A stretch of 64,000 nt of DNA from Chytridium lagenaria. Taxonomy: Eukaryota > Chytridiomycota > Chytridiomycetes > Chytridiales > Chytridiaceae. Made by a program: the position numbers and the translations under genes. Below are positions 1-57,661 of this stretch, piece by piece (within the stretch, counting starts at the first letter, position 1; every line of letters starts with the position of its first letter). The stretch spans positions 496,001 through 560,000 of the forward strand of contig JAHLKC010000003.1 in assembly GCA_025449115.1 (NCBI GenBank), written 5' to 3'. A model generated the notes under the pieces. The model was given only the letters and a program-made list of their open reading frames with translations, did not search any database and was not told the DNA's origin.

Positions 1-2576
1 CACGCTTTACGTGTAGACGCGTCGGTGGAGGTCCGGAGAAGATGTTTAGAGGTTTTAGGCAGGATTGTGGATGTCAGGGAGGGGAGGAGTGGTTTTCGAT
101 CGTATATCGGATGGTAAGAGGGCAGTATCCGTTTGAGGATGGGGGAGGAGTTGGAGTGATTGATGATGAGGGGGAACGGGATGAGGGGGTTATGGAGGCT
201 AAAAGGAGGGTTATTGGGTTTGGACAGAGATATCATATGGAGTGGTTGTATCCGAGGGTTGGTGGCGTGGTGGGGAAGGGAGGTATGGGGTTTGTAGGGG
301 GACGGGAGGAGGGGATTTGGAAGGGGGATAGTGGGTTTCAGTTTCCGGAGTTTGGGGATGGGAAACGGAAGTCAGAGAAAAAATACCGAGATCTGGAGAA
401 AGTGAGAGGAACGCGTGAAAGGCGGAAGAAAGTACGTGATATGCGTGAAAAAATGGAGACGTTGAAATCGATGGAGAAGATTGGGGAGATGGATGTCGAG
501 GAGCAGATGAGGGATATTTTAAAAGAGGATGGAGACTGTTTTATCGAGGATCGTGCATATTCAATTGCAGAGGAATCTTATCATCCTCTTATTGTGGGGT
601 TAGAGGATATGTCGAAAAACATGGATGACGTCCAACTTAAAGAAAAATCGCGGCACCAAATCTTAGCACTGACGAATTGAACAACTTACCTCAACAGGTA
701 GGAAACTTTCTGTTCGTTGCAAATCGCTAACATATCAAACCAGCGTAACGCTGATCTCGACAACGCTATACCATGGGAAGACCCTAGCATCCTCTTTAAA
801 GGATCTGAGCGATATCTTCAAGAAGCCTTTGCGCTGGTCGACGATGAAGTTAGGCGATCTTTGGCGTCGTCGCCTGTTGCTGTGTTTACACCAGGACGCG
901 CGAGGAATGTAGATTTAGAACGGATTTTGGAGGAGGAGGAAGAGGAGACCCTGAGAGAGGTGCTCTCTAAGAGGCTTCAGGATAGCGTTTTAAATGGTAC
1001 GCCGACGGGGATGCCGTGGCGGGAAGTGGTGTGAACGCGGATGAGCTTGGTGTGGATGTGGAAGATGATCATCGTGTTGTGGACGAGTGTGCTCAAAGCC
1101 GAGGGATGCCTTATGAAACGGAGAGTGATCGTGAAATTGGGGATGAGCCTGCTCAGAGCCAAGAGATGCTTCATGAATCGTTGCGATCGAGTCATCTGGG
1201 TTCAAAGGCCAACTTTTTACATGTAAACGGTGACATAACAACACAACCGTCTTATCCGCTACAACATCCACACGCCATCCCAACTATCACAAAAGACGCT
1301 AGTACTAGCATTTCGTTCTCGGATTTTATTCGAGTTCAACAACCCTCGTATCTTCGCTGAAAAGGCTACCTCGATGGGTGATTTTGCTGCCCTCGACGTC
1401 AAAGAGTCCAAAGGTGTGCAATACGATTCGGTAGAGTCTCCGTCACATCCAAACGTGGAGTCCTCAGTGGACCGGATGATGAGTTTTGAGGAAATTGTGT
1501 CGAGAGAGGGGGGTGGACGCCAAGGAACGGTGGATTTGGATGCGTTTTTAGCAGGCGGGGAGGGAGAGATGGAGAACATGGCTTCACGGATGGGTTTGGG
1601 GCCGTTGGGGGAGAGGTTTTTCCGAAACTGGCCGAGTCGAATACACCGAATAAAGGGGGCAGTATGCCTGTTCAAGCGACACCCGGAAGTCCGCAAAGTT
1701 TTAACTGGTCACAATCGTCGGTTGCATCTCCCGTTCCCAGAAAGTAAAGGGAAAGATCAAAATGAACAAGGACGTGTTGATACGATACGTTCTGCTGCCG
1801 CTGAGGAAGATATGTTTGCTAGTACGCACGCGACGTGTCTTCACGCCCTTTTAACGCACTGACGGATTGGAGTTCGACGTTTACGCTGCATACCATTCGT
1901 CCACGGATGCAGGCTGCTGTAGATTTTCTGTTACGGCATTTGGTGTTTACGGCGGCGCAGAAAAAGAATTTCGGTATAGTGATTTGTATCGGGATGGAGG
2001 GAGAGGTTTAAGTTTTGGGAGTGGGTTTCTTCTTGGCAGTACTTCGATGATGTCGTTGGGGACGATAGATTTTGGAGATGATGAGATGGTGCCTGAGGGG
2101 TTGCATTTGATGTTGAGGGAAGTTTTTAAGTTAGATGCGGTGTTGATGGTGGAACTGTGTGCGGGTATGAGTATGGGGATGAAGGGTGTCATGACGGGGA
2201 ATCCAAAGAATAAGTTGAAGATATTGTAAGTTTACTCTTCTTTGTTCGTAACCTGACGCATTTTGTTGACAGGCTCTCCGGTCTCTACGACGTACACTGT
2301 CATCTCCTCCCTACTTCACGCGCACTGTTTGATGTTGAAAAGGAGATGGGGAAGTTGACGACTGCTCAGGCTATGGTTGTGATTAGGGACCAGGTTATGT
2401 TGCAAAGGGTTACCGCGAAAGATAGGAGGGACTCTAGAATGTTTTTTCCAGGGTTGTATAGAATGAGAGCTGCAGCCATCGTTGTCGAGATGGGGTGGGG
2501 CTGGAGAAGATATGACGTTTGTGGCGTGGTTAAATGGGTTGGTGAACGCGTAGCGTGTATTTATGTGCCTGTTTAA
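1..2576 (+). CDS. Unrecognised multi-exon gene, 5' end outside window
   Basis: I do not recognise this gene. Frame 1 is open from the first base and reads a HEAT-like segment (VDASVEVRRRCLEVLGRIV), so the gene probably starts upstream. It then slips into the frame that runs to about 676. That part carries a charged helix rich in K, R and E near residues 105-150. A plausible intron lies at about 691-741, with a CTAAC branch site and a CAG acceptor, and joins to a segment beginning RNADLDNAIPWEDPS. Open stretches follow at 717-1034, 1016-1360, 1374-1862 and 1867-2229. A GTAAG...ACAG intron at about 2227-2272 leads to the last exon, which ends at 2576. The middle is low-complexity and acidic; the last 200 residues look globular. 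Exons are a best guess, and two neighbouring genes cannot be excluded. Confidence 0.4.
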
Positions 2577-2745
2577 TTATTGTATATCTTTGTTGTTTAT
2601 TTGCGTAGACGCCAGTCGGAATGAGGAATAGTTTGGCTGACACCCCCTTGTCGTCACGTAATTCATTGAGTTCTGGCTGTTGTTGCGATGGCTCCTTTCC
2701 TTGTAATTGTCAGAGTTTGGCCTTCAAATTTAATTATCGAAAGTG

Positions 2746-5700
2746 ATGGCGTCGACAAACGACCCACTATCCCCAAAGAACTCAAAGGCCATGGCCCAAC
2801 GACCCCCTTCAAAGATGCCTGACATCGTCGACGCAAAGTCAAAGCAGTCAGACACGACAGCCCTCTTTGAGTCCCTGCATGCAAAGCGATACGTCGCTGG
2901 ATTTATGTACAAGATTGACGAGCTGGGAGTCACTGGCAAGCCCTTGGGTCCTCCCATCGCTGGAGTCTGGGCGAAATGGTGGGCGGAACTATGGGGTCCT
3001 TATCTTCATCTTTGGAGAATCCCTGAAGATCTTGCCGCAAAGCCTTACTACCCACAACCATCGGTGGAGTCCATTTTGACGAATGAGGCTTCCAGTGATG
3101 AACCGGATTACGTTACAGGGATCAAGAACAGCAGCGCACCGCTTACCCTAAATATCGCGATGCTGTCGTCGAGATGTTGCCGTATGGTTATTCACCTGTT
3201 CCCAGCACTACACTAGTCACCCCAATGCCACCTATTCCCTACGACAACTTTCTCGCTCTCAACACGGCGGGATCAAACCTCTTTCACCTGTCCCTCAGAT
3301 CATCCATCGCCGCCAATGCTGGGCAGGAGCGTTTCGTCTCGCATCTTTCGAGGCCTCACGCGTTAATGAACACCATACCCTTAAGATCCTTGGAACCCCA
3401 GCGATGAAGATCTTGTTGGACCAATTTTGGTCTAAAACCGTTTGCAACGCTTGGGAACGTCGGAAAACACTTTAAAGAAATTCATTACGAAGGTCAGGTC
3501 AAAGTTCGGCTTTGCTATGGGCCCGAGTTTGTGGATTATTATGTTGTCATTAGTAATAGAGCTGAAACGCCCGGTTCTGGGTCAACAAAGGAGTCTGGGT
3601 CGTTTAGGAAATTTATATCTGCTGTTGGAAGAAAAAGAATCAAGCAGAGGCTGCTGCACCTGTTGAACAACCTGTGGCGCTGAAACGTGCCGAAATTGCG
3701 TTTTTTGGGTCACGAACGGATGCACATAATAATCAGAGACCAGTGTTTCGGTTTGAGCATGTTCGACATGTGTATGAGGATTTGACAACGGGAGTTGTTG
3801 GGAAAGGTGGGGTGATTGTTAAAATTGAGGGGTGTTGGTTATACCTGATAAAGATAAACGGCGGTCAGAATACAAGCCAATGACGAATGAACCGAGGTCG
3901 ATGGCGTATCCTGGGGCGGGGTTTGAGAATATTGATCCGATAAGTGATATGGCTGTTGGAGTCGACGCGAGGCCTCGACCGCAACACTTCCATATTATGT
4001 TACCCGATGATGCAGTTGAAGCGAATCATTGGATTGTTGCAACGCTTGCTGCGTTTCATCTTGATGCAGACTTGGGGACGAGGGAGAAAGAGATTGAGGA
4101 TGGGGAGGTTGGGGTGGTGGGGAAGGAGACGGCTTGGGGTTTGTTGTATTTATCACCGGATGATATAGCGGGGTTGGCGATGTCGCCTGAGACGCTTGGG
4201 GAGGTCAAGTTGAGGTTCGCAAAGGTTTTTAATGATAAGAGTGGGGCAAAGAGGGCGGGTTATCTTGAGGGATGGAATGACGCGGTTGGGCAGGGGACGA
4301 CCGCGAGGAATGCGTATGAGAGACAGGAGATTGAGGGGAAGGCGAAGGGGTTGGTAGAGTGGTTGACAAAGGCAAAAGAGGAGGCGGGTGGTGGTAAATT
4401 GAAGTCAAAGAAGGAGAGTATGATTTCGCCGATTATAAACGTGACAGAACCAACGGTCGAAAGGAAGACGGCAGATGTGGAGAAGAAAAAGAGTAAGAGG
4501 TTGTCGGCTATTTCAGCGACTTCGCAGGTATCGGAGAAGAGGATATCAAGGAAGAAGACGACGGATTCGAGAAAATCGACAAAGAGCGTGGAGCTAAAGA
4601 GTGTGGTTGCCCGTGAGAGTTTGGAGGAGGAAGGGGACGAGGTGGACGAGAATGGAGAAAAGATGAAGAAGCATGAAGAGGGTGAAGACGGTGTCGAAGG
4701 GGATGAAGATTCTGATAAGAGTGATTCTGCGACGGGGGAAAGTGGGGAGGGTGGCAGTACGGAGGAATCCGATGGAGACGAAGAGAGCAGTGAGATCGAC
4801 GAAAACGATGAAGAGAAGAGTGAGACTGATTCCGAATCCAAACCTGCAGGGCCGGTATTTGTCACCACCGATCTCGTCCTTCTGGCTCTTCCCATTCTTC
4901 AGCCAAATGGCATTTGGATTTGGCAGTACCAATTCGCCGATAAGGAGACTTACCAACCGCAGCCTAACATGGAGATAGTGGCGCAAGCCCCTGCTGTACC
5001 TTTTGATAAGAAGGGTATCGCCGTAGCCATGGAAAGAGACGATGAGTCTGACGAGGAAGATGGTGACGATGGGGAGGAGTCTTCGGGAGATGATGAGGAT
5101 GATGGAAGTGAGGAAAGCAGTGATGGGGAAGAGATTGTTGAGGGCGGGAAGGATAGTGCAAGTATTCGCCGTGGATCGCTGTTAGTGGCAGGCGCGCCAG
5201 GCGTTGGAGCCAGCAGCGCTGAAACCGAGCAACTGATTCCCCCCAAAAAATCCAAGAAGGCAGCGGTAGCAGCTGACGGTAGTGATGATGAAGGGAGTAT
5301 CAGTGAAGGCAGTGGGTCGGGCACGGAGAGCGGAGAAAGCGGTGAGAGTGAGGAAGAAGATGACGAAGAGTATGAGGAAGAACAACCTGATGCTCTTCGT
5401 CAGCCTTTGTTGCAGCAAAATATGATGATTCCCGGGCTTATACCTGGATTGTTACCGCTACAACCCGGATTTATGTTACCCAATATGATGGGTCAGACTC
5501 CGATGCCAATGACGCAGGATGGGATGCAAGTCGCACCATCTGAGCGTAGCTACGACGATGATGACGATGATGATGCAGTAAGTAGATTATTTCGGAGAGG
5601 TTTGTGTCAAACCTAATCCTGTTGATAGCCCGTTAGCAGAGAAAAGTTCAGACTGTTTGCCGAAAACTCACTTCTAGCGCAACTTCCCGACAAAACACCC

Positions 5701-14651: not shown

Positions 14652-15427
14652 TCACTTCTTTGCCACCTTGGACGCCTTCTCCTGGCCTTTACCCAAAGTA
14701 TCCGCTGGCCGCTTCTTCTTTCCGGCTTTCGCTAATGCACTTTGAGCCTTCAAAGGTTGCGATGATGCTGCAGCGGGTTCCGATGTTTTGGGCTCCGTTG
14801 GCATGAGATTTGAAAGAAAGCTTTCTGCTTGTTGCTCGAGTTCAGCTATGGGTAAGTTTAGGAAAGAGGTTTCGCCAAAGAGACTGGGTACCTTTGCTCT
14901 TCTCGTGATTGTTGAGACCGTGACGCACGAACCGCTTTGCTGCATCCTGGTCGATTCTTGTTGTTGCTGAAAGTCCCGTTAGTTTATTGTGTTAAAATTG
15001 GATCCCTTACGTTTATCTTTGCCGCCCACTTTTGCTGCTTTGTCCATGTAGTCCTTTATCCTCATCTAATAAAAATATCGAGTGAATATGATAAATATTG
15101 TTCACCATCTTTTGAACGCACCAACTCTTTTCTAACTGGATGTCCCTTTGTTGCACCTTCCGTCCGCAAGTATGCTGTTGGACGGATGCATATAAGTATA
15201 CTTCAGAGCTTCCACTGATTCTTACCAAAGAAGAGGGTGTTGATGGTGTAGGATAGAAGAATGTATGTTCGTGCTCGATCAATGGGGTCAAGTTTCGTCA
15301 TCATCGAGTCAAATGACTCTCCGGACGTCGCATCGAGAAATGGAGCAAGTTTCTCCTCCACTTCGGAGATCGACTCAACAAACTCTTTGGCCTTTGACCC
15401 AAACTCCATTGCAACGTCTGGATCCAT
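14652..15427 (-). CDS. LRP1: C1D/Lrp1 (Rrp47) exosome cofactor
   Basis: Nuclear protein of the Sas10/C1D family that partners Rrp6 of the RNA exosome in processing of rRNA and snoRNA ends. The first exon starts at 15427 (MDPDVAMEF) and holds the helices SISEVEEKLAPFLDA and FDSMMTKLDPIDRARTYILLSYTINTLFFG, the core of the C1D domain. Downstream segments read GATKGHPVRKEL (15120-15175) and KAAAKRFVRHGL (about 14915-14950), both matching the order G-HPVKKEL and AAxRFIxHAL known in the family. The tail after about 14850 is basic (AKAGKKKRP) and ends GQEKASKVAKK. Two or three short introns are implied, and there are frame slips near 15100 and 14930. The start codon lies only 71 bases from a transposon insertion, so its original promoter may be displaced by 5 kb. 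Confidence 0.78.
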
Positions 15428-15497
15428 CGATTTTCTTCTTTGGGAGTGAAAGTTGTCAAGAGTTTTTAGCAGTTCAAAAAGCTGTTCTGGTGATTAA

Positions 15498-15621
15498 GGG
15501 GAACTTTGGGTGAAAAATCTAAAGTGGGGATAACGAGAAGAGGACAAGAGTGCATCTCTAGTGTCACCCTTCAACTTGTCCTTTTCTTCGCTATCCCCAA
15601 GCACCCAAAGTCTTTTGACAA
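15498..15621 (+). repeat. Split direct repeat A1 (left terminus)
   Basis: This 124-base repeat is identical by eye to A2 at 20235-20358. It is internally palindromic. CTTTGGGTG (15504-15512) pairs with CACCCAAAG (15602-15610), and 15526-15548 pairs imperfectly with 15575-15598 around a 26-base loop. It marks the left end of the retrotransposon. Confidence 0.93.
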
Positions 15622-15645
15622 GCTCACCCTCCCCGTCGCCTGCCC

Positions 15646-16978
15646 ATGCCACTCCCTCGCTCACCCATCCTCCAGCGCGACACCCTTGAGGGTGCCTTGG
15701 ACCTGGACCACGCTCTTGACTTAGACGGCACTCACACCCCTACCGTCGACAGTCCTCCTCCAGCTCACCAACCTCTACTTCCTTCACTCTCTACCCCACC
15801 ACCTCCTGCCACCCAACCTCGCATCACTCGAGCCTTCGCCAGCTATCTCCATTGTCCCCTCTGTAACGACAACACAGGCCATCATTCCGCCGTCGATATG
15901 ATGCTCCTGTGCCCTCAAGCCAACAACCTGACCGCCGTGGATAAGGCCCTTGCCGTCATCAACCCGGCGCGCATACCCATCTGGTCCTCGCTGGTCTTGA
16001 GTCTCTTCGTTCAGTCCTCATATCTGGTGGTTCTAGGCCCACCGCTAGGCAAGTTCCTCCCCCTCCACCTCCTGCGGGACCACCAATCCCTCCGTTCCCT
16101 CCTCGTCTCCTAACCCCGCAACCTCTGAGCTGTCTCAACTATCTGATATTCTTAAGGCTATGCTTCTCAACGCCGAAGCCGACCGCCGTCAAGCCGCCAG
16201 TGAACGCGCAGATGCCGCCCGCCAGCAACAGGAATACAGGGATACCCTGTTGGGGCTACTGGCCACTAAGGATAGCACCCAACAGGTTATCCCACCAGCA
16301 AAACGCTCCTTGGAGAGCCACCCCATTGGTGAGCGTCTCTCCTCCCTCTTTCCCGCCATCAAGCCAGACATCATCGCAAAAATCCTCCACAAAACCTTCA
16401 CCGCACCCGACCTCTACCATCTTGGCCGGGAATATTCGGGGGAACCGGATGCAGTCACCATGGCACCACACTCTGACGGAACCTTCCAAGCCATCGACAC
16501 AAAAAGCAAGATCACGACCCTCCTACAATTGATTCGGTGCCTCGCGGTTTATTTCGCCCTACGGACCCACCTTTTCAATCACGAGCACCAGGATACCTTG
16601 AACCGCCGCCTGGATTTGCAGCCACCTCTTGTTCATCGCCAACCTCACATCCCTCTCCGCCACCTACAAGTTCGAGGCTATTCGCAACTACGCACTGGCC
16701 CGTCTACGCCGGTTTTTTGCCGACGACTCCTTTGACCTTGGACTCCTGGACGCGGAAGACGTTACCCGCTACCTCACTCCTCACCCTCTCCCCCCAACCA
16801 CAAGCCACTCTCCAACGCCTCCACCACACCTGCTCGGTCCCGCACTCCCCTTCCTACCGGTTCGTGCTTCAATCATAATCTTGGGATCCCTTGCGCTAAG
16901 TCCCCGTGCCCCTACAAGCACGTTTGCGGTAACTGCAAAGTCGCCGGACACGTGACTAAGGAGTGTACGCGGGCCTAA
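15646..16978 (+). CDS. Retrotransposon gag-like protein with zinc knuckle
   Basis: First open region of the Ngaro-type element. It begins at ATG 15646 with a proline-rich N-terminus. After a slip at about 16030-16120 it continues as a coiled-coil-like segment (LSDILKAMLLNAEADRR, 16140-16250) and a helical region to about 16510. After another slip comes a block with YKFEAIRNYALARLRRFFA (16660-16725). It ends with a CCHC zinc knuckle, CGNCKVAGHVTKEC, just before the stop at 16976-16978. The CX2CX4HX4C pattern is that of retroelement nucleocapsids, which bind the RNA template. Because the element's repeats are identical, I infer that the slips are consensus errors, but real decay cannot be excluded. 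Confidence 0.8.
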
Positions 16979-17031
16979 AAGGGCCCTCACCACGGACCGT
17001 CAAGCTAATATCCTTTCCTCCGCCTCCTTGA

Positions 17032-18925
17032 CGGTCCGTACTCCCCTTCACCCACTAGACCCCGCCTCCACCTCCCCTCCTTCCGCGCGCTCTCATCAGC
17101 CACTGTCACGGCCCGCTCAACTCCACGAATCTCTTCAGCCACCTTCGTGGAGGCCTCCTTATCCCGAGTGCTCCTTGGGACCCCCTCGGGGAAATGTCTT
17201 TTGGGGTCCCCCCCAGCAGGAAAGTGGTTTCTGCTTCTGACCCTTCCTGCTCCATTCTGATCCTTCCCTGGTTCTCCCTTCTCACAGCTTACATACCGAC
17301 ACCCCACCGCCGCCTCGACCCAACACCACGCTGCGGCAACCGCTCACTTCCGGCCAGCGTCATCAGCCTGGCTCTCCGCCTTCGCCGCTGATCACCCCAC
17401 CTCTCCGGCCGTCTTCAACCGGGAGGTGTGGGCATCGGTGTTTGCCGACTACCCTGAACCCAGTTTGATCACGTCCGTTTTGGACGCCATCACTTATGGG
17501 GTTCGCCTCGGCTCCCTTGGCCCTCGTTTTCCTCTGCGCGGCCCCAATCTCTCCTCCGCCACGACCACGCCGCGCTGCCATCGACAAGAGCTTGCAGGAA
17601 GAACTCTTAGCAGGCCGCATCCGCGGCCCCTTTGACTCTCCTCCTTTCCCAATTTTCGCTCGTCGCCCCTCGGCGCCGTCCCAAAAGGGCATTCCAATCC
17701 CCCCAAATACCGCAGGATTCACCACCTCTCATGGCCGGTTCACGGCCCTTCGGTTAACGCCAGCATCCCGCCGGAGGACTTCACGTTTTCATGCGCCACC
17801 CTTGATGACGCCGTGGAGGACGTCCTTCTCCATGGAACAAACGCGTTGCTCTCCAAGGCGGACCTGGACGCCGCTTTCCGCCATGTTATGGTTCACCCCG
17901 AAGATTGGGAACTCCTGGGTTTTGAATGGCGGGGACAGTTCTACTACGACATGTTCCTCCCCTTTGGCTGCCGCTCCTCTCCCTTCCTCTTCAACATTTT
18001 CGGCGAGCTCCTTCATTGGGCGGCCTCCCGGTGCGGCATCACCTGCCTCACCTACTACATTGACGATTTCCTCTTTGTTGAGGCCCCCAACGCTGACCCC
18101 TCCGCACTTGCGCGGTTTCTGGACCTTTGTGCACGCCTCGGCTTCCGCGTCAACCCGGATAAGACGCTCGGCCCAGCGACGCTTCTCCCTTTCCTGGGCA
18201 TCGATTTGGACACCCAGAAGATGGAGGCCCGTCTTCCTGCTGATAAGCTTGCCCGGTCCCTCTCGCTCCTTCAGACCTTCCAGCACAAGACCCGCGCTTC
18301 ACAGCGCGACATACTTAGGCTCATTGGCCCTCTGTCGTTCGCGTGCAAGGTTCTTCCCTCCTCCCGTCCCTTCTTACGGCGTTTTATCGACGCCGCCTAC
18401 TCGGTGGATCAGCTCTGGCATCGGGTGACCCTTACCGCCATCCCTACAGGAGGACTTAGCCTGGTGGCTAAGTTCTTGTTTGCTTGGAACGGGATCGGCT
18501 TCCTCCAGTGGACCCCTGGGTCACCTCAGCTGCCCTTGAACTTGCCACCGACGCCTCCGGCACCAGATAGGCTACGGCGTGTACTTCCAGGGGTTCTTGG
18601 CTCCATGAGCGGTGGAGCGGTTTGGTAACCCCTCCCCCCTTGACGCCGACATCCAGTGGAGGGAGCTTTTCGCCGTGGTCATGGCAGCGGCCACTTTTGG
18701 CCCTCGCTGGCGGGGCTCGCGCATTCGGCTTCTCTGCGATAATCAAGCCGTTGTCCAGTGGATTAACACTGGCAGTGCCCCCGCTGCCCCTTCCCACCTT
18801 CTCCGCCTTCTGGCTTGGTTCTCCGCCCTCCACTCCTTCCTGCTCCGTGCTGTCTGGATTGCTACCCTTGACAACGGCGTCGCCGACGCTCTCTCGCGCT
18901 TTGATCTAACACGCTTCCACTCTCT
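17032..18925 (+). CDS. Retrotransposon reverse transcriptase and RNase H
   Basis: Second coding region of the element, copying RNA to DNA. The clear RT block is 17813-18540: LLSKADLDAAFRHVMVHP, FEWRGQFYYDMFLPFGCRSS, then YYIDDFLFV at about 18054-18078, whose YIDD holds the catalytic aspartates, and FLGIDLDTQKMEARLP. Upstream, LLAGRIRGPFDSPPFP and VPKGHSNPPKYR match the RT entry region of DIRS/Ngaro-type elements. RNase H follows: ATDASGTG-like at about 18548, QWRELFAVVMAAATFGP (18655), LLCDNQAVVQWINTGS (18730) and NGVADALSRF (18870), supplying the D, E, D and D residues. The frame slips in 17500-17800 and 18560-18640. The N-terminal start is unclear. Confidence 0.88.
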
Positions 18926-19950
18926 TGCACCGCAGGCCTCCCCCCTCCCGACGACGCTGGCTTGCTACCCACCGGCACCTTCCGGCAGATGTGGCGTATT
19001 TCTTCTACCACGGCCTCGCCATCTCCTCCCGCCGCACCTACTCCACCGCCCAGCGGCAGTTCCTTGACTTTGCCCATACACATCGGCTCGTCAACGCCGA
19101 CGGCAACCCCCTCCCCGCCGCCGAATTAACTCTTTGCCGCTGGGCGGCCCACCTCGCCCGCCGTCCCCTCCTCCCCACCACCATCAAGCAATACCTCGCG
19201 TCCGTCAACTCCCTGCACCGTGAGCAGGGCCTCCCCGACTGCCTCACCGACCGTTTTACCCTCCAACGCGTGTGCCGCGGCATCGCACGCGCTCTCACGC
19301 ACCAACCCTCCCATGTTCGCCTCCCCATCTCCTATACCCTTCTTCGCTCCATGCACTCCCTCCTCAACCTTGACAACCCCTCCGACCTTGTGCTTGGAAC
19401 GGCCATGGCTACCGCCTTTTTCGGCCTGCTCCGTTCCTCTGAGGTCTGCCAGCCCTCCACCTCTTTCTCCCCAGCCTGGCACCTCTCCCGCTCTTCAGTG
19501 GTTTTCATCCCCTCCCTCCACTCCCCCACCCGCGTCGAGCTCACTCTCCCCAGCAGCAAAACCGACCCCTTCCGCAAAGGGGTGGTGGTGACCATTGGCC
19601 TTACTGCCACCACCGGCCCCTGTGCTGTCACCCTCCTCCGTCACCTCTTCACTCTCTACCCCGCTCCACCCGACTCCCCACTACTTCAGCTCCCAGTTGC
19701 CCCCTTCACACCTTTCACCAAACCCCGGTTTGTCCATCAAGTGCGCGGCCTCCTCTCCCGTGTCGGTGCCATCCCCCTTCACTACGCGGGCCACAGTTTT
19801 CGTATCGGCGGCGCCACCGCCGCCGGCGCCCTCGGCTACAGTGATTTCGAGATTCAAGTCCTCGGCCGCTGGCGCTCAGATGCCTACCGCACCTATGTGC
19901 GTCTTCCCTTGGACCTCCGCGCCGGACTTGCCGCCCGCCTCGCTTCTTAA
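18925..19950 (+). CDS. Retrotransposon tyrosine recombinase
   Basis: Third coding region, an uninterrupted frame of about 341 residues overlapping the end of the RNase H frame. It would integrate the circular cDNA intermediate and replaces the DDE integrase used by LTR elements. The N-terminal core-binding part contains SSRRTYSTAQRQFLDFAHTH. The catalytic part shows the first arginine in FFGLLRSSEV (19420-19450), the HxxR box in YAGHSFRIGGATAA (19785-19825), LGRWRSDAYRTYVRLP with candidate nucleophile tyrosines at 19884 and 19893, and the stop at 19948-19950. All expected catalytic residues are present, so the enzyme could be active. Third codon positions are heavily C-biased compared with host genes nearby. 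Confidence 0.95.
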   Translation: MHRRPPPSRRRWLATHRHLPADVAYFFYHGLAISSRRTYSTAQRQFLDFAHTHRLVNADGNPLPAAELTLCRWAAHLARRPLLPTTIKQYLASVNSLHREQGLPDCLTDRFTLQRVCRGIARALTHQPSHVRLPISYTLLRSMHSLLNLDNPSDLVLGTAMATAFFGLLRSSEVCQPSTSFSPAWHLSRSSVVFIPSLHSPTRVELTLPSSKTDPFRKGVVVTIGLTATTGPCAVTLLRHLFTLYPAPPDSPLLQLPVAPFTPFTKPRFVHQVRGLLSRVGAIPLHYAGHSFRIGGATAAGALGYSDFEIQVLGRWRSDAYRTYVRLPLDLRAGLAARLAS

Positions 19951-20113
19951 GTTCTCTCCTTCTTTGATTTCCCACGCCGTACCGTCCCGATTTGTTCTTC
20001 TTCTTCTCTGTTTTGTCATCCTTCCTCCTCTTCTGCAGTTTTTTCATCTTCCTTGTTTTTCCACTTCCCCTTCCCTCCTTGGGCCGTATCGCCACCTGCG
20101 GCGTCTCCTTCTT

Positions 20114-20234
20114 GGGCTGTTTTCACGAGCGCGCACCCTGCATGTCCGCGCTGGACCCAGGAGCGTGCAAGTGTTTTTCACCCGGAACCCGTTTTGCAGC
20201 CCAAAAACCACGTCTGTCCCACATGACGAGTTAT
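20114..20234 (+). repeat. Split direct repeat B1
   Basis: This 121-base repeat is identical by eye to B2 at 20504-20624. It starts GGGCTGTTTTCACGAG and ends GACGAGTTAT, and it directly abuts A2. The B1/A2 junction recreates what a circular intermediate would carry where B meets A. Confidence 0.93.
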
Positions 20235-20358
20235 GGGGAACTTTGGGTGAAAAATCTAAAGTGGGGATAACGAGAAGAGGACAAGAGTGCATCTCTAGTG
20301 TCACCCTTCAACTTGTCCTTTTCTTCGCTATCCCCAAGCACCCAAAGTCTTTTGACAA
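20235..20358 (+). repeat. Split direct repeat A2
   Basis: Second copy of the 124-base palindromic A repeat, starting GGGGAACTTTGGGTG. It is followed by a 145-base T/C-rich spacer (20359-20503) that has no copy elsewhere in the window. Confidence 0.93.
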
Positions 20359-20503
20359 CCTACCCTTCGCCTTCCCTACTTTCCTTTGTTGGTTTTTTCC
20401 TGATTCTCTCCCTTTTCCTTCCTTCTTTCTTCGGGACACCCTCACCATGTATATTCCTCTCCCCTCCGCTGGTACGCGTTTATTTTAATATATTTTTGGT
20501 TCC

Positions 20504-20624
20504 GGGCTGTTTTCACGAGCGCGCACCCTGCATGTCCGCGCTGGACCCAGGAGCGTGCAAGTGTTTTTCACCCGGAACCCGTTTTGCAGCCCAAAAACCA
20601 CGTCTGTCCCACATGACGAGTTAT
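20504..20624 (+). repeat. Split direct repeat B2 (right terminus)
   Basis: Second copy of the 121-base B repeat and right end of the element. The host sequence resumes with GTTCTATTAAATAAA. The G at the boundary is shared with the first base of A, so the exact edge is uncertain by one base. Confidence 0.92.
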
Positions 20625-20730
20625 GTTCTATTAAATAAAAATCTAAGATGCATGATGAAGCCATAAAGAAAATGAAGAAAGTAAACCTCGGGAAAACATC
20701 ATTATCGATTGCATAGAAGTTATTTTAACT

Positions 20731-23116
20731 TCATTCGTAAAGACGAAGGAAAAGGCTTTTTAACAACCTCGCCTCATACGCGACGGAGTTCTTTGCGGGG
20801 TCAATGCCTTCAACTCCCATAGGATCAATCACAACAGGAATATTACGACCATGGAGTTCACATGCATCAAAAAAGGCTAGTGCCTCTGCAAACACGGTGT
20901 CTTTGAGAAGGATCATGTGTTTTGCCAGTGTTTCAAATAAAGACGCGAAACAACGCTTGGCGTAATACCACGTATCCGTTCCCAGCTATGCAATAATTAA
21001 TGCTTGCATAAATGTATACTCATTTCAAACCTTCTTATTAAAGGGTTCCAAACTCTTCATGATACGCGAGATTCCAAACTCGTAATTTCCTTTTGCGCAG
21101 TATAAGGTCCCAATAACCAAATTTACGATACAGAGGTGGTATGTTCTCTTGTTCGGATCTTCGTAAGCAACGCGTTCTTCCTCTTTCTCAATCTTCCTCA
21201 TAAGTTTTCGGCTTCCTCATTCTGCGACGTCATAATGTACGACACACACAAGTTCGCCAACACTATAGCCGTGACATCCAGAATCTTCAAAAGGTTGGTG
21301 AGTCTATATGTAAGTTAACCTTACATTCTCGTAATGCTTTTTGACTATAGGCTCATAGAAAGATATCGCTTCCTTGTATTTACTCTCCTGCATGAAAAGC
21401 ACATGCGCAACGTTTAGCTTCCAGACGTCATGCTCGTTACAGAATTCTACGCTCTTTCGGAAAATCTTTTCAACCATGCTATAGTTCTCCATGTCCCAGT
21501 ATATTTTCGCTTGTGCCATAAGAACTGGAATATATCTTCAGAGATTAGCTTGGCCATACAATTTAAGAAATAAACCTTTCTACAGCATCATCATAATCGT
21601 TGACGACTTTCTTTACTGCCTCTTCGTCCATGTTTTGCCTTGCTTCCTGCACTTGCTTCGTGAGCTTTCGAAGAATCTCCACGTGTTTATTCGCGAGATC
21701 GTCAAGCTTCTTAAACGCTTCCTCAGGTGATGATTGTTTCAACAAAATTGCTTCCAAGTAATCAAACAAATACTAACACCGTCAGAAACCAATTTCATAA
21801 ACGTTCCTACCGTATTCAAATGGTTGTAAGTTGCCGCGCTATTCTCAGCCAAAAGGTCTGCAGCGAGATCATAATACTCGTACTTGACGTACAGCAGCAA
21901 CAGATTTCCAAAGGCTTCCGGTGGTGTGGGTGGTTGCTGAAGGAGGAAGTTGAGTTTCTCAAATCCTCCCGTCGGATCTTCGTCCATATTCATGAGGGCT
22001 TGGTTGTGAAGACTGACGGGATCCAGCTCTTGCTCAAGTCGGGGAGGCATATCTGTCAAAGCTTCGCGAGCAGCTTCAACTTCAAAGACAGTTATTTTAA
22101 ATGTTGTAAGATTGTATCTTACAGTTGCGTAGTCTGTACTCTATGGCAGCTTTCAAGTTAAACGCTTCGACGAGATACGTTTCATGTAGCACCTGCGAAT
22201 TTCCAACACTCCTGACCTCAATACCCTCAGTTGCCATTCCAACGCTCAACTCTGCAGCCAGTCAATAAACGCGTGTTTGATTTCGTTTTTACCTGGATGA
22301 TCCCGAATTCCACGTTCAATAATATCCGCAATCGCCTTCAACGCAGGTACAAACTGTTTCATCTGATAATGACATAACGCAAGGTTATAAGAAAGTTCTG
22401 CATTATATCCAGATATTTTTAAAGCTTCGGCGTATTTGATGCAGGCTTCTTCATACTTTCCTTCCTGTTATACATGTTAGGCTCTGACAGATAAAATAAC
22501 AAATGACCTTGTACAGCAAGCACGCCTGGTTTACAATCGTGTCTGGCTCATCGGGTTGACATTGTTCGATAAGTTGCTTGCAGCCTGGAAGGTCATCCAT
22601 CTCATATTTGATCGCAGCCTGGAGTTTGATCAACTACATCGAAAGATGTTAACACCAGCCAGTACTTTCACGCGGCAAAATAAGGCACCTTCTGAGAATA
22701 CTCCGGAGTTTCCACAGTCTGGCAGGCTTTTTGAGCGGGCTGATACTGCCCAGACTTGTAAAGTGACTGTGCATAGTAAAGCCTGTAATCATCGACTTCT
22801 GGAAACGTTCTCACGAGCTGCTCGTAGCTTTCAGAACTTTAGACCACATCAAAGAGAGGCATCAATTTACCATTGACAGGCAGATGCATAATCCTGTATC
22901 TGATAGTAGCAGTACCCAAGCAGCTCAACGCAGCACGACTCCGCGGGAACGTATTAAGCTCATGCGACAGAATCTTGATGGCATCCTGGAACCTCCCATC
23001 CCGAATATAGGTGTATATGTGGAAGTGTACTTCCCCTCTGGCACTTGCACAAAGGCCATACTTGGCTGCGCTATCCCTATCCCTCCACCACCGTTCATCG
23101 ATGTGGAGGGCATCAT
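20731..23116 (-). CDS. IFT70: IFT70/TTC30 intraflagellar transport protein
   Basis: Tetratricopeptide-repeat subunit of the IFT-B complex, which carries cargo along the flagellum and is needed to build it. From the N-terminus on the minus strand the sequence reads MAFVQVPEGKY, YIRDGRFQDAIKILSHELN with FPRSRAALSCLG, LQAAIKYEMDDLPGCKQL, LTDMPPRLEQELDPVSLHNQ, ALMNMDEDPTGGFEKL with FGNLLLLYVKYEYYDLAADL, LRKLTKQVQEARQNMDEEAV, YWDMENYSMVEKIFRKSVEF, CNEHDVWKLNVAHVLFMQES and finally ACELHGRNIPVVIDP. Identity to animal TTC30 is obvious throughout. More than ten short introns are implied. The last codons (LFLRLYE, stop at 20731-20733) may be slipped. Its presence shows that the organism makes flagellated cells. 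Confidence 0.95.
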
Positions 23117-54238: not shown

Positions 54239-57200
54239 ATGAGATTGTGTGTTTTATCTCCTCTCCATCGCAGCCGTCCTCCCGGTGGTTGCGATGGAGC
54301 TCCTCCTCCCTTTCGGCGAGCTGACAATGATTCCTACATTCCTTGTGTACATGATCATGATGTGGCCTATGACCATGTTCTTTGTGAGTATCCCACCCAC
54401 CTTGCGTCGAACGAAAGGATTAGGAAGAAGTTGTTTCCAAACGTAAGTAGGCTTGTTTCATGTAGTTGGTGGTTTGTGAACTGAATCAAGAGGGTATCTT
54501 TATCTGATTTAGAGCAAGGCCGTGGGATGGAGAGCCTGGTTCCCGTTCGCCTTTAAGCGATCTCCTCCTCTCTTCCCCAACCATCAGCCCATGTCAGCAG
54601 GAAGGTGAGTTGAGACACTTTTTACTTGATTTGTTTGTTTGTTTGTTTGTTTTGTTTTGTTTACTTCCAGTCTGACAATTTCTCTAAAATTAATTTTTCT
54701 AAAATTTCAATTATTGGCAAAAAGGGAATCTTGTTCAAATCAGTGGCAACTGTGGCATCGTATCCTTGGGGTTTGTGGTGGTTGGACGCGTGGTTGGATA
54801 CGTTATTTACAACATCAAAATGCTCATGTGCTACTTCATACTCACTGTCATCTTATGACGCTGTTTATGATGGTTTTAAAGTATTTGGAAGAGATAAAGG
54901 TTGGCGTTTTTTTTGTTTTGTGGTTTGGTTTTTTTGTTTGGCGTTTTGTTTGGTGGAGATATCGTTTACATACTTTTTTATCTCGTCTTTTCATTAGTTA
55001 TACTTTAGCCATTTATTGAATTGAATTCTTACTTTTTAATTATTACAGAATGCTTGGAGATTAAGTTGTTCATTCATTCAAAGTTTCTTCCAACAACAAC
55101 AACCACAACAATCGGAATATATCTACGAATATGACGAAGGTATTTATTACTAATCTAGTCATCATCTAATTTAATATGTAGATGGAAGCGGTATTAATAA
55201 CAAGCGATTCTTTAATTATGAGAATACACTGGGTGTTCCTATGCTCACAAGAGAAGAGCTCCGATGCCGTCGATGGTCCAAAGGTAAGAATATTATTCTT
55301 TTATTTTCTACAGAAAATAGTTGAATTTTCATTAATATTCTTGAAATTTTTAAAAATGTTACTGACAATTTTTCATCTTTGATTTATTTATTAGAAAAAC
55401 CCTCTTCCATTTCTCAACGGCATCAGCAGCAGAGCAGTGTCGTGGACCCCACCATTCCTTTGTTGATGATGGGCTACATGACAGCCGCTATTGCTCCTGC
55501 TGCTGAACCTCATTACGCTAGGGTCAGGGCTTCACAGGAGAGAGTCGAGAATATTCACGCGTTTAATCGTAAGCATTTCAATAACTTTTGCTTATTCAAC
55601 TTATTCACCTTTTATAACATTTCTACATCAAATAGGTACCATCCGCCAAAAGACGTCGTATGAGATTAAATGCGAGAAGAGCCGACTCCGTCTCCAGCAA
55701 AGTGAGTGAATCTCTTTTTTTTTATATTTAATTTTTTTTTTGTTAATATTATTTATTGTTAGGCTTTTCGTTCACAGCCCAATCGCAGTATACCCGTCCA
55801 GCTTCACCCGTCATCCAACCTCCAGTCATCCGACCCACCGTCATCCAACCCACCCAACCCCAGAAACCCCTCCAATGCGTAACTTCAACCCTCCGTCCTA
55901 CGGACCTTTTCCAGAGAATAACGGCTAGCAACTCCCTCGCCACCCAATCCGACCCAGTTACTCAACACTTTAACATCCCCACCTTTAACGACACCAATGG
56001 CCTTTCCTGCCCTATCCCCTCATACTACAACCTCAGCACGGAAACTCAGCAGCAGTTCACGGACGGTCAGCAGCAGCAGCAATCGTTCCAATACAGTAGC
56101 CAGCAGCAGGAAGGGCTTTCATTCCAGCAACAGCAATTGCATCAAGTTCAGCAGCATCCGTATAATCACCAGACATTTCCGCTTAACCAGCAGCAGTTTC
56201 CTCTCGAGAACCAGCAACCGCAGCAGCAGCAGTATCATCCCCAGCAATTGCCGCTGGAACAGCAGCACGCGCACCTGTTTGTGCAGCAGTCCCCGCTCAC
56301 GTACCAGCACCCGCAACAGCAGCCGTATAATCACGAACCATTGACGCTCATGCAACAGCAGTTCACTCTCGAAAACCAGCAACAGCAGCAGCAGCAGTAT
56401 CATCCCCAGCAATTTCCGCTAGATCAACAGCAGCACGCGCCATTGTTTATGCAGCCGTCCCCGCTCACGCACCAGCAACCGCAACAGCAGCCGTATAATC
56501 ACGAACCATTGACGCTCATGCAACAGCAGTTCACTCTCGAAAACCAGCAACAGCAGCAGCAGCAGTATCATCCCCAGCAATTTCCGCTAGATCAACAGCA
56601 GCACGCGCCATTGTTTATGCAGCAGTCCCCGCTCACGCACCAGCAACCGCAACAGCAGTCGTATAATCACGTGTCATTGCCGTTTATGCAGCAGCAGTTC
56701 CAGCTCGGATACCAAGAACAGCAGCAGCAGCATCACCATTACCAGCAATTTCTGCTGGAACAACAGCAAGCTCCACCGTCTATGCAGCAGTTCGCGTTCG
56801 GGTACCAGCAACCGCAGCAGCAGCCGTATAATCAGCCATCACCCCTCAACCAGCAGCAGCTCTTATACGGCAGCAGCAGTACTTGTACGCCAGCAGGAGC
56901 AGCCGTTCCAGTACGGTAGCCAGCAGCAGGAAGCGTTTTCATTCGAGCAACAGCAAAGGCATCAAGTCCAACCGCAGCATCATCAGCAATATTCGCTCGA
57001 ACAGCAGCAACCGCAAAGTTGGCAGTCCTCGAGCACCAGCAACCCCAGCAGCAGCAATACCATCACCAGCAATTGCCGCTCGAACAGCAGCAAGCGCCGC
57101 GGTTTATGCAGCAATTCCCACTCGAGTACCAGCAACCCCTGCAGCAGCAATACCACCACCAGCAAATAACGCTCGAACAGCAGCAACCCCAGCAGTTGGT

Positions 57201-57661
57201 GCAGGGATTCCCGCTCGAGCATCAGAAACCACAGCAGCAGCAGTACCATCACCAGCCATTGTCCTTCGAACAGCAGCAACCACAACAAGGTATTCATTGC
57301 CTTCTCATTTTTTTTAACCTGTTTTTATCTAGTTGCAGCTCCTCTTGAGGACCCGGCCCGATTCTCCGCACCCAGCCTAGCTCCGCTTGAGACCCCAACC
57401 CCTTTTCCCGCACGCAGCCTCCGCGACGCCGCCCCCCTTTCCGACAGCAACGCATCTGTGTTGCAAAGGCTTGGGGTCAAGCCTGCAGTGCCGGAAGTCA
57501 CGGCCGCCTTTACTGTGGAGGAGGGTGTCGGTACTTCACGCGGTCGCTCCCGTGAGGCTATGAATGATGTTCAGAGGCCTGGGTCGTCCAAGCGGCGTTC
57601 AAAGAAGATGACCGCGAGCGAGCTTTTGGACTTGGAGCTGCGTAATGTTAGAAGTTGGTGA
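54239..57661 (+). CDS. Glutamine-rich protein of unknown family
   Basis: Not recognised. A spliced reading from ATG 54239 keeps one frame across good GT-AG introns at about 54441-54513, 54604-54669, 55138-55182, 55285-55393, 55569-55636 and 55700-55762. The N-terminal 250 residues include HVLCEYPTHLASNERIRKKL, VGWRAWFPFAFKRSPPLFPN, FFNYENTLGVPMLTREELRC with RRWSK, and YARVRASQERVENIHAFN. From 55763 on, over 400 residues are dominated by Q, P, H and Y, coded by CAG/CAA, with a 56-residue unit repeated three times (56293-56790). An intron at 57285-57335 leads to the last exon, ending SKKMTASELLDLELRNVRSW at 57661. Slips occur at about 56870-57010. Composition suggests a transcription or mRNA-decay coregulator, but that is inference only. 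Confidence 0.55.
56293..56790 (+). repeat. Coding tandem repeat, 168-base period, three copies
   Basis: Units begin at 56293, 56461 and 56629, each with CCGCTCACG. Copies one and two differ at about three positions in 168; copy three is clearly diverged in its second half. The period is 56 codons, so copy number can change without breaking the frame. Confidence 0.9.

Follow-up and report, generated by a model that had tools for sequence, protein, structure and literature searches.

Ngaro elements belong to the retrotransposons that carry a tyrosine recombinase (YR). Their definition is taken here from three papers (PMC3783388, PMC4157794, PMC8547959). In basidiomycete Ngaro, the repeats follow the order A-pol-B-A-B, the coding order is reverse transcriptase (RT)-RNase H-YR, and no methyltransferase is present; an overlap between the RT/RNase H and YR frames, and a variable YR frame relative to RT, are also known (PMC3783388). 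A 2013 survey of 177 fungal genomes called fungal Ngaro Dikarya-specific, with none in early-branching fungi, where only two chytrid genomes are named, and it does not decide between inheritance of Ngaro and its horizontal entry into Basidiomycota (PMC3783388). Here, we describe an element of the same layout, A1-gag-RT/RNase H-YR-B1-A2-B2, in a 64,000-nucleotide stretch of contig JAHLKC010000003.1 (hereafter, the window).

This element is very probably a Ngaro-type YR retrotransposon that inserted recently between a C1D-family gene and the gene for IFT70 in a zoosporic fungus, probably a member of Chytridiomycota. In the titles and abstracts listed from the open-access literature searched (Repbase lay outside this search), no report of Ngaro in zoosporic fungi was found. 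Its new aspects are the lineage of the host, a YR placed beside those of basidiomycetes, and a hairpin in the A repeat.

Architecture and genes

The element has split direct repeats, with the internal repeats located downstream of YR (Table 1). An earlier sequence-only reading had given the order of parts correctly: RT is recognized by PF00078 and the repeats by exact extension, and both repeat pairs are identical, as that reading had stated (A, 124/124; B, 121/121). Exact extension of B covers 20114-20235 and 20504-20625 (122/122 identical); the 122nd base is a G common to the B1 end and the A2 start, hence 121 bases and one shared base. A separate direct-repeat search in 6.2 kb recovered the A and B pairs independently. 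The remaining direct-repeat families in this region were 20-37 nt long with 72-85% identity (one represents A in another register), and two inverted pairs were seen (20-21 nt, 75-81% identity); DIRS1-like inverted terminal repeats with an internal complementary region were not found in this search. Fourteen element frames (13 on the plus and 1 on the minus strand, of 38 frames of at least 80 aa in 15000-21200) were scanned with Pfam. The only matches were RVT_1, a sub-threshold RT_RNaseH and two chance-like weak matches, and no methyltransferase, DDE integrase or protease was detected in these frames. By the structural criteria tested, i.e., split repeats, RT-RNase H, a downstream YR and the domain content of the scanned frames, the element is of the Ngaro kind, as originally proposed.

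The zinc knuckle of gag (CX2CX4HX4C) is expected 0.003 times per element (300 mononucleotide shuffles), and a YIDD box was read by eye in RT near 18.06 kb. RNase H is located downstream of RT and was recognized via homology to two proteins, P0121 and P0122. Their LPTGTF stretch maps to 18917-19153 in a different frame from YR, and thus the RT/RNase H frame runs at its end into the first part of YR.

The YR frame lies on the same strand as RT and has no stop before its end. Six residues (R175, K217, H295, R298, W321 and Y329) are invariant across 29 aligned YR rows, which include a partial row of the same family from another contig (C107); we take this R-K-H-R-W-Y set to be catalytic, as in Cre and XerD. 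Profile alignment to Cre (E 1.7e-13) supports R, HxxR, W and Y. PF00589 is matched by 17 of the 29 rows, and the window YR was recognized through these relatives. The protein is modeled with a Cre-like fold (predicted local distance difference test score, pLDDT, 85.5; predicted template modeling score, pTM, 0.68), with Cre as the best structural match (E 4.7e-11). The expectation that all YR motifs reside in one open frame was borne out.

Table 1. Features of the element and its flanking genes in the window (C131 is a second copy in the same genome)
Feature	Position	Strand	Evidence and remarks
Left neighbor, frame with Sas10/Utp3/C1D domain	15203..15493	-	PF04000, E 6.3e-7, 30.3 bits vs cut-off 30
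A1 repeat, left element end	15498..15621	+	124 bp; exact extension
gag region	15622..16978	+	several frames as assembled; segments conserved with C131
gag zinc knuckle CX2CX4HX4C	16925..16966	+	motif; also present in C131
Reverse transcriptase (RT)	17354..18472	+	PF00078, E 2.9e-13; frame changes 17.56-17.64 kb
RNase H	18432..18950	+	homology to P0121 and P0122; PF17917 sub-threshold, E 0.061; frame changes/stops in first part
Tyrosine recombinase (YR)	18910..19950	+	open frame, 346 aa; start overlaps RNase H frame end
B1 repeat	20114..20234	+	121 bp; exact extension
A2 repeat, abuts B1	20235..20358	+	124 bp; exact extension
A2-B2 spacer	20359..20503	+	145 bp
B2 repeat, right element end	20504..20624	+	121 bp
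Right neighbor, IFT70 exons (intraflagellar transport)	20731..22140	-	PDB matches to IFT70

Copies, age and coding state

In the genome (41.9 Mb, 356 contigs), the whole element gave at least 23 matches, and the A and B repeats were found in at least 9 and at least 14 places, respectively. These repeats occur on at least 11 contigs, by which we name the copies: C3 (the copy in the window), C131, C107, C33, C108, C27, C110, C13, C116, C238 and C117 (a 53-base piece). A search for other copies, suggested by the earlier reading, thereby yielded 10 other contigs with one interrupted full-length copy, fragments and two solo A-B remnants. All genes are covered in C3 and C131 only, and C131 is the interrupted copy, with approximately 7.5 kb inserted in YR (C131:33142-40629). 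About 52 bases of YR are present on both sides of this insert, an unusually long duplication. Two copies are solo remnants, A-spacer-B in C33 and truncated on the left in C108, both as expected from recombination between A1 and A2.

The ends are constant among copies. Left ends begin with GGGGAAC in 4/4 cases (C3, C131, C33 and C110). Of the 14 B places, four are followed by A2 and one is a partial match (C117); the other nine all end in GTTAT, and the next base is G (four), A (two), C (two) or T (one). No abutting target-site duplication was found in C3 or in the solo copy C33. When the B1-A2 junction (20225-20245) is read by eye, it shows short inverted arms around 6 bases (AGTT-ATGGGG-AACT); the middle has the size of a recombinase crossover core, and the arms, only four bases long, may be due to chance.

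A single long hairpin is predicted for the A repeat (-51.1 kcal/mol, z -5.95, 0/200 shuffles as good). In the other five full A repeats (C131, C33, C107, C27 and C110, the last 76% identical to the window A), z ranges from -2.96 to -4.53, with 0-2 of 200 shuffles as good. The inner stem is present in 6/6 minimum-energy folds, and the outer stem is missing in that of C107. No compensatory base changes were found for 39 consensus pairs in an 8-row alignment, so the evidence is fold conservation rather than covariation. The hairpin may have a role in priming, in strand transfer or in binding of YR. Among the literature matches listed, which were not read for that purpose, no comparable hairpin was noticed. 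A weaker B-repeat hairpin (z -2.58, 4/200 shuffles as good) is not claimed.

Within copies, the repeats show no substitutions: 0 in 245 bases for C3, and 0 plus one gap each for C131 and for the B pair of C107. Zero changes in 245 sites place the upper 95% bound on divergence at approximately 1.2% (rule of three), and thus the term "recent" is sound, yet the event is not sharply dated. From these comparisons the insertion looks recent, and the young age proposed earlier agrees with the absence of within-pair substitutions in three copies that nevertheless differ from each other.

Ratios of nonsynonymous to synonymous divergence (dN/dS) between C3 and C131 were 0.03-0.08 for RT, 0.06-0.09 for YR and 0.13-0.22 for gag (five segments); RNase H gave 0.15 and, for a segment extending into the YR overlap, 0.38. 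Against C13, C107, C238, C27 and C110, the YR values were 0.12-0.17, and RT gave 0.05 against C107 (57 codons) and 0.42 against C238 (34 codons). Wrong-frame controls on YR and RT gave at least 1.7 in 10/10 tests, and amino-acid identity of gag was lower in its other frames. These low values indicate that gag, RT and YR were under purifying selection until shortly before the copies inserted. At ungapped sites, C3 and C131 are 85.5% identical in gag, 84.9% in RT, 89.9% in RNase H, about 91% in YR, 96.7% in A and 99.2% in B; dS is 0.48-1.24 in gag and RT and 0.32-0.39 in YR. This divergence, falling from 5' to 3', suggests mosaic lineages, as if 3' parts had been exchanged.

In its assembled form, C3 shows frame changes in gag (near 16.0, 16.6 and 16.8 kb), in the N-terminal part of RT (17.56-17.64 kb) and in RNase H (18.46-18.66 kb), where stops are also present in the frame followed through this domain. 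C131 carries frame changes of its own, and those near 16.0 and 17.64 kb look common to both copies; if shared, they would point to a programmed shift, an intron or a defect inherited by both. In element positions 1-3972, 55 of 61 gaps between C3 and C131 shift the frame, and many are longer than one base; frame-changing gaps number 18 in gag, 13 in RT, 1 in the N-terminal part of YR and 0 in its C-terminal part. One-base gaps fall in runs of at least three bases in 9/31 cases in the 5' part (18.5% of bases are in such runs) and in 10/16 cases in the 3' part (27.5%). The description of the copy as complete therefore holds for its structure. With gag and RT/RNase H changing frame in this assembly and YR alone being open, the suggestion that it is possibly active was not supported. 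The C3 copy, as assembled, is unable to produce an uninterrupted RT/RNase H; it would thus have been supplied in trans, been broken after insertion or contain assembly indels.

Relationships and alternative readings

A search with YR gave 797 matches among 7999 candidates scored; 120 were listed, eight of these with an organism name. A tree of 48 rows (47 of the 120 listed matches and the window) contained seven named basidiomycete rows and one coral row. The window and all seven named basidiomycete rows fell in a 22-row clade (support 100/100), with the coral row outside. Inside this clade, the window grouped with P0001, P0002 and P0003 (100/99), rows without an organism name, and the other side comprised 18 rows (91/84), namely 17 basidiomycete-type rows and P0019; calling the window lineage sister to basidiomycete YRs assumes a root outside the 22 rows. 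The window YR is about 40% identical to a Favolaschia YR. An earlier 59-row tree, which held a very long row from the same genome (C67), did not settle the grouping with basidiomycetes; the 48-row tree was built without C67 and with a different pick of rows lacking organism names. For RT, 260 matches were found and 120 listed, two of which come from named organisms, a fish and an oyster. The RT tree is weak, since long branches meet and other RTs of the same genome lie behind a branch of 5.6, and it was used for one point only: C3 groups with C131, and the C67 type is separate from them. The latter (C67:53300-56400) is a second, distant YR retroelement family, with RT and YR on one strand and approximately 27-29% identical to those of the window; two of its frames scanned with Pfam gave no match.

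Several observations weigh against the assignment to Ngaro, or against parts of it. The trees contain no named or curated Ngaro, DIRS or PAT reference rows. RT had no match in PDB, RNase H stays below the Pfam threshold, and the window YR alone gives no Pfam match. The YR model superposes only loosely on Cre over the whole chain (TM approximately 0.5, root-mean-square deviation 8.7), and its residues 323-330, which hold the catalytic tyrosine, have pLDDT below 50. Gag and RT/RNase H are interrupted. C131 has a 4-base AAAT match abutting both ends, probably by chance, as its flanks are AT-rich. Finally, packaging, priming, the circle intermediate and strand exchange are steps that we infer. The lack of PAT and DIRS rows also leaves a place for convergence, in which a PAT-like or DIRS-derived element would have lost its methyltransferase and come to look like Ngaro; such a loss has been reported in Caenorhabditis briggsae (PMC4157794), and split direct repeats are common to PAT, Ngaro and VIPER (PMC6681497). 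The window YR, however, groups with basidiomycete YRs, and basidiomycete YR retrotransposons are described as Ngaro only (PMC3783388), which makes such an origin highly improbable. A search for DIRS in the same genome gave two Dam matches, one barely above the cut-off (C228, 28.5 vs 28.1 bits) and one below it (C109), neither tied to any element.

The other alternatives concern the state and history of this copy. It may be intact in the living fungus, and perhaps autonomous and active, if the frame changes are assembly indels: the B pairs of C131 and C107 differ by one-base gaps, located in C runs, with zero substitutions; between C3 and C131, base runs hold more one-base gaps than their share of the sequence predicts; and the dN/dS values of gag, RT and YR show recent function. 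However, the same assembly has other RT-like matches in open frames that reach 1308 aa, YR is uninterrupted, as are several host frames in the window (297-595 aa), and most gaps lie outside runs and, in positions 1-3972, change the frame, often by more than one base. We regard an intact copy as rather unlikely. The element might now move only as a DNA circle via YR, in a Crypton-like manner, with gag and RT decaying, and YR is indeed the sole open frame and nearly free of frame-changing gaps. Selection on RT and gag, however, is equal or nearly equal to that on YR; RT was thus needed until recently, and we regard this scenario as very unlikely. It is also conceivable that the insertion is older and that the A and B pairs were homogenized later by gene conversion or YR exchange, in which case their identity is no date. 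Frame changes do coexist with identical repeats, and C3 and C131 are more alike in A and B than in gag and RT. Yet dN between the long copies is low (0.02-0.18), which bounds neutral decay, and three copies lack within-pair substitutions while differing from one another, so homogenization seems improbable. We retain recent insertion of a Ngaro-type element as the preferred reading.

The coding strand is C-rich (C 38.6%), with a strong C-over-G skew across 15498-20624, and C at third positions reaches 62% in YR and 47% in RT, compared with 13% and 19% in two host frames. Such a composition would be compatible with a foreign origin or with strand-biased mutation. In a search for viral relatives, seven stretches fitted a pattern in viral contigs and none was confirmed.

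Host, mechanism and comparison with known elements

The element sits just upstream of the C1D-family frame, which had no match in PDB. On its other side, IFT70 exons match PDB entries at 20731-20985 (E 1.9e-20) and 21739-22140 (E 9.3e-37). A Lys2-like gene on contig C93 has colinear pieces spanning 4-1375 of the 1390 positions of the fungal aminoadipate-reductase profile. Taken singly, every piece stays below the profile cut-off (the best has 529 of 1030 bits), and sub-cut-off pieces also occur in 12 of 14 prokaryotic control genomes; the weight therefore lies on the colinear coverage. The Lys2-like gene and the IFT70 gene next to the insertion support the zoosporic fungal host proposed earlier. 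The NUP35 frame of the window had two matches in all, the host's own and one in Blyttiomyces sp. JEL0837 (29% identity). From this evidence, we take the host to be a zoosporic fungus, probably of Chytridiomycota, the phylum resting on one protein. On two other contigs (C154:498-28956 and C122:54481-61778), long frames match the adenylation part of the aminoadipate-reductase profile repeatedly and possibly represent multimodular genes resembling those of nonribosomal peptide synthetases. A glutamine-rich tandem repeat region lies inside an open frame at 56071-57306 of the window, and no Rfam families or tRNA genes were found in the window.

In the proposed mechanism, the element transcript would be packaged by gag and, once primed, copied by RT/RNase H. 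Through its A and B repeats, the cDNA would become circular, with B joined to A, the same junction that the internal B1-A2 block carries. Recombination of this circle junction with the chromosome by the Cre-like YR would then produce A1...B1A2B2 with no target-site duplication. We also suggest, tentatively and with more doubt than conviction, that this is a chytrid-lineage Ngaro family sister to basidiomycete Ngaro and that its A repeat is a conserved hairpin working in reverse transcription or recombination. A sister family would mean that Ngaro predates the split between zoosporic fungi and Dikarya, or crossed between them, as opposed to an entry within Basidiomycota. With a sister YR lineage in a chytrid-type host, inheritance versus horizontal entry of Ngaro becomes testable. 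In addition, integration and reverse transcription of split-repeat YR elements have been little studied, and the copy set, with near-identical repeats, diverged interiors and solo A-B scars, offers compact data on both.

Among known systems, Cre and the Tn1549 recombinase, whose entries are complexes with circular-intermediate DNA, share the tyrosine-recombinase fold and residues with the window YR, but are not retroelements and are only about 19% and 13% identical to it, respectively. VIPER-like elements have so far been found in kinetoplastids, whereas the present host is fungal. PAT-like elements share split direct repeats, and the gag of Pat1 has a zinc knuckle (PMC4157794), but they carry a methyltransferase, unlike the element frames scanned here. 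Alike by description are the Ngaro elements of Cafeteria burkhardae, with A1-[ORFs]-B1A2B2, gag/RT-RH/YR and isolated AB repeats in the genome; they differ in their stramenopile host and in often being inserted in virophages (PMC8547959). The basidiomycete Ngaro elements match the window element in repeats, gene order and lack of a methyltransferase, and differ in host, the present element residing in an early-diverging flagellated fungus.

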